Part shown: piece by piece, positions 10,460-21,850 of the stretch
Position numbering within the stretch: the first letter of the stretch is position 1
Layout: every line of letters starts with the position of its first letter
Assembly: GCA_017428945.1 (NCBI GenBank)
Contig: JAFRPW010000013.1
Span: 1-64,000 of the forward strand
Origin: Bacteroidales bacterium
GTDB lineage: Bacteria > Bacteroidota > Bacteroidia > Bacteroidales > UBA932
Length of the DNA: 64,000 nt
Direction of reading: 5' to 3'
The notes under the pieces: model-generated
The model's database searches: none
Told to the model about the DNA's origin: nothing
The model's input: only the letters and a program-made list of their open reading frames with translations
Made by a program: the position numbers and the translations under genes

Positions 10460-13225
10460 TTACAGGCTTCTCTTGATTTCCGTAATCTGGAAGGCCTCGA
10501 TGATGTCTCCGGGATGGATGTCGTTGTACTTGTCAAGGCCGCAGCCGCATTCCATGCCAGCGGGCACTTCCTTGGCCTGGTCCTTGCCCCTCTGCAGGGA
10601 AGAAAGCGATCCGGTATACACCACGATGCCGTCGCGGATAAGGCGGACATCGGCCTTGTTTGTGAGTTTTCCTTCCTTCACTATACAGCCGGCGATGGTG
10701 CCCACCTTTGAGATCTTGAAGGTCTGCTTGACCTCCGCGGTGGCGGTGACTTCTTCCTTCTTTTCAGGCTCCAGCATGCCCTCGATACCTTCCTTGACTT
10801 CGTTGATACAGTCGTAAATGACGGAGTAGAGGCGGATTTCAATGCCTTCCTTTTCAGCGGCGCGGCGTGCCTCGGACGAAGGACGTACCTGGAAGCCGAT
10901 GATCACGGCGTCGGAGGCCTCGGCCAGAAGGACGTCGGACTCTGAGATGGCGCCCACGGCCTTGTGGATCACGTTCACGCGGACTTCCTCGGTAGAGAGC
11001 TTGATGAGGGAATCGGACAGGGCTTCCACGGAACCGTCCACATCGCCCTTGACGATGACGTTCAGCTCCTTGAAGTTGCCGATTGCTATGCGGCGGCCGA
11101 TTTCCTCCAGGGTAAGGTGCTTCTGAGTCTTGATGCCCTGGATGCGGATAAGCTGCTCACGCCTCTGGGCTATTGACTTGGCTTCCCTTTCATCGGCCAT
11201 GATGTTGAACTTCTCACCTGCAGCGGGTGCGCCGTTCAGGCCCAGCAGCGAAACAGGGGTTGAAGGACCGGCGCTTTCCACTTTCTGGCCGCGCTCGTTG
11301 TACATTGCCTTTACCCTGCCGTAGAAGCTTCCGGAGATGATGACGTCTCCCACGTTCACCGTGCCGTCCTGCACCAGCACCGTAGCCAGATAGCCGCGGC
11401 CCTTGTCCAGGGAACTCTCGATGACTGCGCCGCTTCCCATCTTGTTGGGGTTGGCCTTGAGCTCCAGGAGGTCGGTCTCGAAGAGCACCTTCTCAAGGAG
11501 TTTGTCCACTCCGATACCCTTCTTTGCCGATATCTCCTGGCACTGGTACTTGCCGCCCCAGTCTTCCACCAGGATGTTCATTTCGGACAGCTGGCGGCGG
11601 ATGGTGTCCGGATTTGCGCCGGGTTTATCTATCTTGTTGATTGCAAAGACCATGGGAACGCCGGCCGCCTGTGCGTGGGCGATTGCTTCCTTGGTCTGGG
11701 GCATCACGGCGTCGTCGGCCGCGACGATGATGATTGCAAGGTCCGTCATCTGGGCGCCTCGGGCACGCATGGCCGTAAAGGCCTCGTGGCCAGGGGTATC
11801 CAGGAAGGTGATCCGCCTGCCGCTCTCCAGCTTCACGCTGTATGCGCCTATGTGCTGGGTGATGCCGCCGGCCTCGCCTGCAATCACGTTGGTGTTGCGG
11901 ATGTTGTCAAGGAGGGAAGTCTTACCATGGTCTACATGGCCCATGACGGTAATCACGGGAGGGCGCTCCACGAGGTCTTCCTCGCGGTCAGGCTCCTGCT
12001 GCTCTATCTCCTCCGACAGCTCTGCCGTGACGAATTCCACCTTGTATCCGAACTCTTCTGCAACAAGCACAAGCGTCTCTGCGTCAAGGCGCTGGTTGAT
12101 GGATACCATCATGCCAAGGGACATGCAGGCGCCGATGACCTTCACCACGGGGGTGTTGTTCATGAGGGTTGCAAGGTCGTTGACGGTAACGAACTCCGTC
12201 ACCTTCAGCACCTTGTTCTCCGCTGCTGCGGCTTCCATCTCTTCCTGTGAACGGAGGGCTGCAATCTCGCGCTTCTCCTTGCGGTGCTTGGCGCCGAAAT
12301 TGGGCTTGTTCTCGTTCATCTTGGCGTAGGTTTCCTTGACCTGCTTCTGGATTTCCTTCTGGAGCTCTTCCTGCTCGGCCTCCGTCATTGCGGGCTTGAA
12401 GCGGTCGCCCTTCTTGCGGCCCTTTCCGGGAGCTGCTGCATCGGGCTTCTTCTTGTCTCCCTTCTTGGGAGCCTTGTCGGCCTGCACCTTGGTCACGTCC
12501 ACCTTCTGGGGGCCGCCGGCCTTGATGCGCTCGCGCTTCTTGGTGCGCTTGGGGTCAAACTGGGAAAGGTCTATCTTGCCGATAACCTTGAGGGGCGAGC
12601 CTCCCTGTGCAGGGGCCTCCGCTGGGGTCGGGGCGGGGGATTCCTCTGCTACTGCGGGCTCTTCTTCCGGTTCCGGCTCTACGTCATTCCCGACCTGTTC
12701 GGGAATCTCTTCCACAACGGGCTCGGGCTCTACCACGGGTTCCGGTTCGGGCTCAGGTTCCGGTTCCGGCTCAGGTTCCACCACGGGCTCGGGTTCCGCA
12801 ACGGGTTCCGGTTCAGGTTCTGCCACGGGCTCGGGCTCGGGTTCCTGGACGGGTTCCGGTTCGGGTTCCACGTCATTACCGGCCTGATCGGGAATCTCTT
12901 CCACCACGGGTTTTGACGCACGCGAGAGGTTGTTGCTCTTGATCACGGTGACACGCTCGGGCTCATAGTCCTCTTCTTCCTGCCCCTGCTTCTTTGATGC
13001 CTTGTCCAGGATTTCCGTGAGCTTGACGTCCACCTTTTCGGCGGCTTCCTTGAGCTCCAGGTCCTTGCCGAACTTCTTGTGAAGCTCCGGCATGAACTCG
13101 TCAGACACCTTCAGGTTGGGATTTGCATCCTCTATGCCGGCGCCTTTGGAATTCAGGAAGTCCACCAGGGTGTCAAGCCCGATGTTGAATTGTTTGATTA
13201 GTTTCGATAATCTGATTTCTGCCAT
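10460..13225 (-). CDS. infB: translation initiation factor IF-2
   Basis: A 921-residue initiator-tRNA-binding GTPase. The IF2 N-domain (1-60), a long low-complexity linker, and the G domain (GHVDHGKTS near 430, then DTPGHEAF and NKID) followed by domains II-IV are complete. The linker at about 105-185 is a Pro-Glu dipeptide tract and contains two copies of a palindromic repeat translated as [11 protein letters not shown] and [11 protein letters not shown]. Third gene of rimP-nusA-infB, 24 nt after nusA. It converges with the BT_3928-type gene with a 4-nt gap and no terminator seen. Confidence 0.95.
12682..12709 (-). repeat. palindromic repeat inside infB (copy 1)
   Basis: A 28-bp copy of the family CGTCAT-stem-loop-ATCTC. 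Its stem ATTCCCGA/TCGGGAAT is intact with loop CCTGT. Read on the infB strand it encodes EIPEQVGND within the Pro-Glu linker, in the same frame as the other coding copies. Confidence 0.8.
12871..12898 (-). repeat. palindromic repeat inside infB (copy 2)
   Basis: Second coding copy, 189 bp from the first. The left arm has two changes (ATTACCGG) so the stem is weakened; the right arm TCGGGAAT is intact. It encodes EIPDQAGND at the N-terminal edge of the Pro-Glu tract. Confidence 0.75.
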
Positions 13226-13249
13226 ATATAACCCCTTTTTTGTTCTGAA

Positions 13250-20339: not shown

Positions 20340-21086
20340 CTAGAAATCTAATTTAACCACAAAACAGGACTTTCCGTCCACTCTTCCTTCCACATACCAT
20401 GAAGACTCCCTGAAGATGCGGAATATTTCCACCCTGTCTCCAAGGGTGGTTTCTTTGTTGAAGTTTATCCAAACGTCCCGGACGGGCCGCATGGCGTCAT
20501 CGGCAGGGATATGGTCCATGGCCCATACCAGATACCGGACGTTGTTCGTATGCCCTACGATGTCTATGTCGGAGTAACTCACGGTGTGCTCTCCGGCGGG
20601 TTCTGCCACTCCATCCCTGGGGAATACCACTTTGGGTGCGGGTTCCGTAATGGCATCGTCCACGGGACCTTCGGTACTGAGGCGGTCCTGAAGGTCTTCC
20701 GGACGAACCAGGCGCCGGGTCTCCTCGTTCATCACCACCCAGGAGCTGGTGCAGCGGACAAGGTGGTTGCCGGAGTGGTCCTGAAGGTCGAAGTCGCGGA
20801 GGTAGAACAGGCCGTCGGCACCCTTGTGCCAGGTATACAGCGCCACGTTGTCCCTCCAGCGGACCGGATTTTCAAAACGGATGTGCATCCTGGAAAGTAC
20901 CCAGGCGGTATGGTGAAGATGAAGGGAGGTATATCCAAAACCAAGCTCTTCCGCAGCCCAGTACGCAATTTCCTGGGCAAGGTCCATGAAACCGGCAACC
21001 CTGAGGCGGCCGTCACGGTCTGTCTGGTAACAGGGCAGACATATGTCGCTGCGGAACTTGTACCCTTCCCTGCTTACTGGTATCAT
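20340..21086 (-). CDS. acyl-ACP thioesterase (FatA/FatB-like)
   Basis: A 248-residue double-hotdog enzyme releasing fatty acids from acyl-ACP. Both halves are present: the first with LAQEIAYWAAEELGFGY, the second with the YSDIDIVGHTNNVRYLVW block that includes the catalytic Asp/Asn/His neighbourhood of acyl-ACP thioesterases. Length fits the bacterial family. It overlaps the upstream HU-like gene by 4 nt (ATGA), indicating coupling. Confidence 0.83.
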   Translation of the reverse strand: MIPVSREGYKFRSDICLPCYQTDRDGRLRVAGFMDLAQEIAYWAAEELGFGYTSLHLHHTAWVLSRMHIRFENPVRWRDNVALYTWHKGADGLFYLRDFDLQDHSGNHLVRCTSSWVVMNEETRRLVRPEDLQDRLSTEGPVDDAITEPAPKVVFPRDGVAEPAGEHTVSYSDIDIVGHTNNVRYLVWAMDHIPADDAMRPVRDVWINFNKETTLGDRVEIFRIFRESSWYVEGRVDGKSCFVVKLDF

Positions 21087-21850
21087 AGGCTGTGAAGGAT
21101 TTCCAACTCTTCCGGCGAGTACAGATAGTAGTCAAGCCAGTCCGGCGCCACCCTGCCCACCACGGCCAGGGCAATCAGCGCCACAAGGGCTGCCACGGCA
21201 ACCCATATGAGTATGGATACAACAAGGGGAATTCTACGTTTCCGTACCGGTTTCTCCACTACAGGTTCAGGTTCTGCAACTACAGGTTCCGGCTCAGGTT
21301 CGGGTTCCTGCTCCGGCTCCGTCACCACGTCATTCCCGACCTGATCGGGAATCTCTTCGGCCACGGGCTCTGGTTCCAGCATCTGGGCCAGTGAAGACAC
21401 GGCCTGTGCCACCTCTTCCGGGGATTCCTCATGTGTCTTTAGGGAGATGGGCTCGAGCCCGAATCCTGCAGGATAGATGTCCAGGTACTCGTCTGCAACG
21501 AAGAAAAAGTGATTCTCCCGTGTGGCACGGAGGCGTCCAAGGCCGGGGAAGACGATAATCTTCTTCGCAACCAGGACTTCCTTCATTTCCGTCAGGTACT
21601 CTACCAGGATGCGGGTAGCATCTGCAGTTGAAATGTTGTTGGAAGAAGAATAAAGGTCTGCCAGAAGGGTGTCCGACCCTTGATGGGGGAGGAAATACAG
21701 GCGCCTGTATGGAGGGTTGATGGTATACCCCTTGTCCGAGAACGTGGCCGGAACCACTTCTGCAGCGAAACTTCCTAATCCCGGGAGAGTTACGCTGTCG
21801 TGGTCCATCATGATTTCACGGACCATTTTGGCAAGGAGGTCAATATCCAT
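21083..21850 (-). CDS. HU-like (CCDC81-type) domain membrane protein
   Basis: A 255-residue protein. Residues 1-140 contain two HU/IHF-like segments (TLPGLGSFAAEVVPA and FPGLGRLRATRENHFFFVAD), as in Bacteroidetes HU-CCDC81 proteins, which often also carry a SPOR domain. Then come a Pro-Glu tract (about 160-205) and one transmembrane helix (about 212-234). No SPOR domain is seen. The linker includes one translated copy of the palindromic repeat (EEIPDQVGNDV). It heads the leftward five-gene operon; the role is unknown but membrane-tethered DNA or septum binding is possible. Confidence 0.75.
   Translation of the reverse strand: MDIDLLAKMVREIMMDHDSVTLPGLGSFAAEVVPATFSDKGYTINPPYRRLYFLPHQGSDTLLADLYSSSNNISTADATRILVEYLTEMKEVLVAKKIIVFPGLGRLRATRENHFFFVADEYLDIYPAGFGLEPISLKTHEESPEEVAQAVSSLAQMLEPEPVAEEIPDQVGNDVVTEPEQEPEPEPEPVVAEPEPVVEKPVRKRRIPLVVSILIWVAVAALVALIALAVVGRVAPDWLDYYLYSPEELEILHSL
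21328..21355 (-). repeat. palindromic repeat inside the HU-like gene
   Basis: A 28-bp copy with perfect stem ATTCCCGA/TCGGGAAT and loop CCTGA. It is translated as EIPDQVGND in the Pro-Glu linker, the same frame and surroundings as the two infB copies. Confidence 0.85.

Follow-up and report, generated by a model that had tools for sequence, protein, structure and literature searches.

A 64,000-nucleotide stretch of DNA from an uncultured gut Bacteroidales bacterium (assembly GCA_017428945.1, contig JAFRPW010000013.1, positions 1 to 64,000; hereafter the window) carries a short palindrome with a CGTC tag at one end, both between genes and inside coding sequence. About 80 copies occur in the genome to which the window belongs (hereafter the host genome; 2.6 Mb in 47 contigs), and 51 of the 81 copies analysed were located within 39 open reading frames (ORFs) with a Pfam match. 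The element is probably a short non-autonomous hairpin of the repetitive extragenic palindromic (REP) kind that has spread through the genus, which we infer to be Cryptobacteroides. Repeats of this kind are usually found between genes; in this genome many ordinary housekeeping genes contain the 28-letter palindrome in frame, where it would add a short loop or linker to the protein.

Anatomy and abundance of the repeat

The pattern CGTCAT-10 to 20 nt-ATCTC gave 92 exact matches in the host genome, against eight for a reversed control. Judged by eye, 77 of these were palindromic and the remaining 15 were excluded. Another eight of the 77 failed a stem filter and were left out (C1:43857, C1:171038, C14:3903, C14:23176, C30:64268, C32:30605, C32:192422 and C40:640), 12 copies with a variant tag or tail were added from retrieved stretches, one AT-rich hairpin was excluded and a decayed copy in infB was put back by hand. 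The resulting set of 81 copies consists of 80 hairpins, counted around the matches and in the window, and the decayed infB copy. Abundance elsewhere in the genome had been proposed as a check in an earlier reading of the window made without database searches (hereafter the initial annotation), and the roughly 80 copies bear it out.

The common anatomy is an unpaired CGTC, a stem of 8–9 bp starting with AT, a loop of 5–6 nt and the tail CTC. Among the 80 hairpins the tag was CGTC in 77 and TGTC in three, a share that is not independent since the hairpins were found through this tag. The stem measured 8 bp in 71 hairpins, 9 bp in seven and 7 bp in two, and the loop 5 nt in 51, 6 nt in 27 and 7 nt in two. 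The 3-nt tail was CTC in 69 and CCA in none. Where neighbouring copies were less than 60 nt apart, the tags faced each other in nine of the ten pairs.

Across 31 genomes of the genus there were 949 matches to the pattern and 119 to its control, compared with 207 and 148 in 20 genomes from other families. A loose pattern, applied to order-level relatives, returned mostly non-palindromic sequences among the matches listed. The named relatives are mostly metagenome assemblies of rumen and other gut Bacteroidales, two of them Candidatus Cryptobacteroides.

Copies inside genes

Host ORFs were accepted at a Pfam E-value of 0.001. They include genes for translation (infB with two copies, metG and ileS), RNA-related genes (truB, rsmH, rsmE and a CCA/poly(A) polymerase), HU-CCDC81, dnaG, secA, guaA, atpG and atpB, as well as dapF and superoxide dismutase (two copies each), dsbD (three copies), several glycosidases and an fmt-like ORF that also matches LptF/LptG. 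For infB, guaA, ileS, metG and atpG, one full-length match per gene was found in the host genome. The 30 copies outside Pfam ORFs are not all intergenic: some lie within or at the end of Pfam-negative ORFs (for example both copies in locus L117) or in ORFs without a Pfam query (such as L124). The initial annotation had proposed a coding-tolerant palindromic element in unrelated genes, comparable to the Rickettsia palindromic elements (RPEs), and the 51 genic copies are in agreement with this.

For 16 of the 51 copies the midpoint lies inside a Pfam envelope, against 30.6 (standard deviation 3.0) expected from random placement within the same ORFs; none of 5000 simulations gave a number as low. 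Several copies are situated between two domains, as in an NtrC-type regulator, GH94, altronate dehydratase and metG. Location was also related to stem type, with 30 of 36 copies of the ATTG and ATGC types found in Pfam ORFs and only five of 17 copies with an ATCC stem (P = 0.0003).

The host ORFs remain open across all 51 genic copies and all six frames are used (a0 23, s1 10, s2 7, a1 4, a2 4, s0 3). The a0 frame, encoding EIPDQVGND and kin, is favoured over the open frames on offer, with 23 copies against 7.8 expected (P = 1.6×10−7, or P = 0.0005 with one copy per ORF). The single frame and orientation initially noted for the three coding copies of the window was rejected as a general rule on these six frames, although a preference for the EIPDQVGND frame exists.

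Part of the copies are accompanied by a half-copy. For 23 of the 80 hairpins a second tag and left arm were found on the tag side at a distance of up to 45 nt, compared with two on the other side and with a background of 25 in 1600 random stretches. Half-copies begin with the tag and break off within the stem or the loop. The unit length is 17–24 nt. Of 17 genic units, 16 had a length divisible by three, compared with three of nine elsewhere (Fisher one-sided, P = 0.002; L115 was left out, its match being the partner of a pair). The units are bound to codons in genes and free outside, and no other observation speaks as strongly for translation of the copies in genes.

Copies in the window

All copies reported in the initial annotation, genic and intergenic, were recovered in the window at their positions. 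With up to three mismatches allowed, the window contains six matches and each of 100 dinucleotide shuffles none, which rules out a chance origin. A scan of the window that ignored the tag yielded ten perfect 8-bp hairpins (loop 4–6), five of which are CGTC repeats. An Rfam family as the source of the repeat was rejected, the sole gathering-level Rfam match in the window being a tRNA. The features are:

10460..13225, minus strand: infB, with a Pro-Glu linker holding two REP copies
12682..12709, plus strand: CGTC-REP hairpin inside infB, antisense to the gene, 8-bp stem and 5-nt loop, encodes 10 residues
12871..12898, plus strand: decayed CGTC-REP copy inside infB, in the same frame as the 12682 copy, encodes 10 residues
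14956..14971, plus strand: half-copy (tag, left arm, loop start), 23 nt ahead of the full copy at 14979
14979..15006, plus strand: intergenic REP, TGTC variant, ATCC stem type
15113..15122, plus strand: half-copy, 17 nt ahead of the full copy at 15130
15130..15157, plus strand: intergenic REP, ATCC stem type
21083..21850, minus strand: HU-CCDC81 domain protein (PF18174, PF18175), with one REP copy in a Pro-Glu tract
21328..21355, plus strand: hairpin of the CGTC-REP type within the HU-CCDC81 coding sequence and antisense to it, encodes EIPDQVGNDV
23226..23253, minus strand: intergenic REP, ATCC stem type

The IF2_N, GTP_EFTU, EF-G_D2 and IF-2 domains of the window infB are all intact in Pfam. 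Both infB copies and the HU copy lie antisense to the gene in one common frame with near-identical peptides, as had been described. One correction applies. The copies at 12682 and 21328 fold at −7.3 and −7.6 kcal/mol, whereas the one at 12871 has decayed, its fold of −2.8 kcal/mol (z −0.59) being no better than that of its shuffles.

A 51-bp unit (TTTTGGTGGACAAGTTGGGGTTTTGGCGGGTTTGTCCACGGAAATGGGGTG) forms tandem arrays at 15175–15305 and 23087–23224 of the window, on opposite strands, each adjoining an intergenic ATCC-type REP. The start of this unit follows at least eight copies outside Pfam ORFs, mostly of the ATCC type, so that a larger mosaic of intergenic sequence may have carried such copies along as it multiplied. 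Two other repeats were observed in the window. An intergenic-looking tandem array at 31011–31159 has a 52-bp unit in 2.9 copies with the inverted motifs GGCCACG / CGTGGCC, and in L021 a repeat of similar appearance is located close to a Y1 tyrosine transposase gene. At 62430–62451 a perfect 8-bp hairpin is followed by ctcc, resembling the repeat without its CGTC tag.

Orthologues in related genomes

Most related orthologues lack the peptide, and in some the linker in question has palindromes of another kind. Among 99 distinct complete InfB N-termini, four match the CGTC repeat (the host genome, G019, L143 and L166), at differing places of the linker, and 95 have no match on either strand. The comparison of InfB orthologues, suggested in the initial annotation, thus gives no conserved peptide. 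In a fifth InfB (G006, L037) a different palindrome-like repeat was seen twice by eye. Among 30 HU-like loci, CGTC-type palindromes are present in the linker of the host genome, G019 and G003, and the peptides of G005 (L062) and G006 (L084) resemble, by eye, other palindrome families.

In G019, infB (L029) and the HU-like gene (L060) carry an almost identical pair of facing repeats, about 58 bp in all, in both Pro-Glu tracts, which suggests possible copying between the two tracts. The tags of these pairs are on the outside, unlike those of most close pairs in the host genome.

Other genes show a similar variation between species. The metG linker has the repeat in the host genome. In G028 and G005 its place is taken by CGTC-like inserts that differ in sequence and in G019 by a larger insert resembling a palindrome, while G002 and G016 have no insert (all relatives judged by eye). 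In dnaG, also by eye, the repeat pair of the host genome has a partly decayed counterpart in G005 and none in G028, G019, G003, G016 and G002, and the atpG loop contains two repeats in the host genome and one in G005. The extra stretch in ileS of the host genome has no such palindrome in 26 other aligned orthologues, nor is one present at the guaA site in 20 others. The second copy in sodB corresponds to seven additional residues relative to both orthologues found (G003 and G016, out of six genomes searched), and from this alignment site 2 reads as a gain of seven residues. Beside the first sodB site, G003 has a different repeat of its own.

Origin and spread

Under the interpretation of a CGTC-tagged hairpin spreading through the genus, a copy would arrive in a gene in any unbroken frame and with a total length that is a multiple of three. 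Copies breaking the gene or the fold would be purged, while those in disordered linkers or surface loops would survive, be translated as some 10–20 extra residues and decay slowly over time. The hairpin would further trigger local slippage by which the tag-side half is duplicated, and inside genes only duplicated units of whole codons would be kept. New copies would most likely be produced by copying of single-stranded hairpin DNA at replication, with or without a Y1 enzyme in trans. The translation of the repeat segments is in each case a prediction from the DNA.

Several observations weigh against this interpretation. Copies are under-represented in coding DNA, with 63% in genes against a coding fraction of 85–95%. 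The repeat is not unusually free of stop codons, having 4.42 of six frames open against 4.69 for random 28-mers, and a stop-free design was rejected on these values. One genic half-copy unit, at the extreme N-terminal end of an A2M-like ORF, is 23 nt long and not a multiple of three. Nor does the element always insert cleanly. At guaA a repeat of 10 residues adds only three and has replaced other sequence. The infB of G019 and that of a close relative (L161) share about 90% identity across 4.9 kb. The N-terminal stretch measures 1221 nt in both, although only that of G019 contains the repeat pair, and gain and loss are indistinguishable between these two. Finally, in the host genome and the relatives compared no mover was found and no copy was seen to move.

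Spread without any transposase, by template switching at replication or by gene conversion from one hairpin to another, would yield half-copies and replacements as well as new copies, and we regard it as a serious option but not as the more probable one. The one-sided half-copies (23 upstream of the tag and two downstream), the replaced sequence at guaA and in the G019 infB, and the shared 58-bp pair of the G019 infB and HU tracts are all consistent with it. Template switching alone explains poorly how copies became scattered over unrelated genes with little common flank. Somewhat more doubtful is mobilisation by the Y1 tyrosine transposases of the genome, in the manner of a REP-associated tyrosine transposase (RAYT), as is thought for GTAG REPs. 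Hairpins that carry an unpaired tag of 4 nt resemble the recognition targets of Y1 enzymes, and the host genome has eight Y1_Tnp matches at E ≤ 0.01 and ten at E ≤ 1, in ORFs of 307–372 aa. The link to such a transposase anticipated in the initial annotation did not materialise: in stretches of 4–5 kb around the ten candidates no complete repeat was present within 500 bp, and the nearest repeats, for two of the ten, were about 1.3–1.5 kb away. Over the 31 genomes, many of them incomplete, repeat load and Y1 count were uncorrelated (Spearman 0.09, P = 0.63), and the seven genomes negative for Y1 still had 6–26 matches above control. Di Nocera et al. likewise report no transposase association for CGTC repeats (PMC3733652). 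Inverted repeats around five of the Y1 stretches contained no CGTC repeat. In one stretch (L018, G000:C14:158000-162000) a Y1 ORF was observed between long inverted repeats of 90 nt with 72% complementarity, an arrangement resembling the TIRYT type (PMC3733652).

Carriage by a larger Pro-Glu linker cassette, which had been suggested for the window copies together with shared flanks, seems very unlikely. Both window genes do have Pro-Glu tracts, and the two G019 tracts share their repeat pair. Most of the 39 host ORFs, however, have the repeat outside any such tract, and in the host genome the similarity between infB and HU is lost only a few codons away from the repeat, on which grounds the cassette was rejected as a general carrier. 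Hardly credible is the alternative that InfB and HU proteins conserve the peptide as a functional motif, with the palindrome as a by-product of its codons. It would account for the near-identical peptides and single frame of the three window copies, but is already contradicted and was rejected: only the four InfB N-termini mentioned above match the repeat, other genes read the same DNA in six frames into unrelated peptides, and the repeat is also present between genes.

The spread of a short CGTC-tagged hairpin, possibly helped by copying at replication, could be extended to a wider proposal, which we consider unlikely at present: that the linkers and loops of core proteins are being rewritten all the time by hairpin repeats of several families, palindromes being a main source of linker sequence in the genus. 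The same linkers of metG, dnaG, atpG, sodB, infB and HU would then receive different palindromes in different species, with the copying driven by the hairpin itself and no dedicated transposase involved.

Comparison with known systems

In-frame palindromes were first seen as a peculiarity of Rickettsia and were later reported, in smaller number, from other REP-bearing bacteria (PMC3733652; PMC10969869). Here they are found in a ruminant-gut Bacteroidales lineage, in dozens of essential single-copy genes and in every frame. Sister species differ site by site in the presence of the repeat, which together with the many genic copies makes an old question directly testable, namely whether selfish repeats create new protein segments and where these are tolerated. 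For annotation it would follow that many proteins of these genomes contain 10–20 residues that are repeat-derived and foreign to the protein family. A search of open-licence PubMed Central literature, mostly titles and abstracts, gave no report of genic repeats of this kind in the lineage.

With the RPEs the family has in common that palindromes of several families stand in frame in unrelated genes (PMC3733652; PMC10969869) and are tolerated in essential ones, truB being a host in both (PMC3733652; PMC10969869). RPE-4 and RPE-6 are themselves described as CGTC repeats and RPE-1 as longer (PMC3733652; PMC10969869), and in-frame CGTC-REPs including these two have already been published (PMC3733652). 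The likeness to the RPEs is one of description, in another phylum with another lifestyle, and the repeats of the host genome are single units of 28–30 bp used in all six frames. RAYT-linked GTAG REPs and their paired forms, REPINs, are also short tagged hairpins in many copies and presumably mobile (PMC2817692, PMC3116915). The tag of the present family is CGTC instead of GTAG, none of the ten transposase candidates is flanked by the repeat, and the copies are not mainly extragenic.

The closest resemblance is to the superfamily of CGTC-tagged REPs, for which repeats from Bacteroidetes have also been reported (PMC3733652, Di Nocera et al. 2013). The two share a tag, CGTC or TGTC, that is left unpaired at one side of the hairpin and a stem of 8–9 bp starting with AT (PMC3733652), a short loop, dispersal mostly as single units, some of them genic (PMC3733652), and a location away from transposase genes (PMC3733652). 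The superfamily has a loop of 4–5 nt (PMC3733652), compared with 5 nt in most copies here and 6 nt in about a third, and a tail that mostly fits CCA (PMC3733652), compared with CTC. Its dimers mostly have the tags outside, with the inward TT type called rare (PMC3733652), unlike the inward pairs of the host genome, where moreover the copies inside genes outnumber those outside. Tail, loop and pair orientation are descriptive and not defining traits of the superfamily. Sharing tag and stem and differing in tail, pairs and part of the loops, the family of the host genome is classed as a CGTC-type REP family and assigned to none of the published families 1–4. It is distinct in its CTC tail, the inward tags of its close pairs, its large genic share and the reuse of the same linkers across species.

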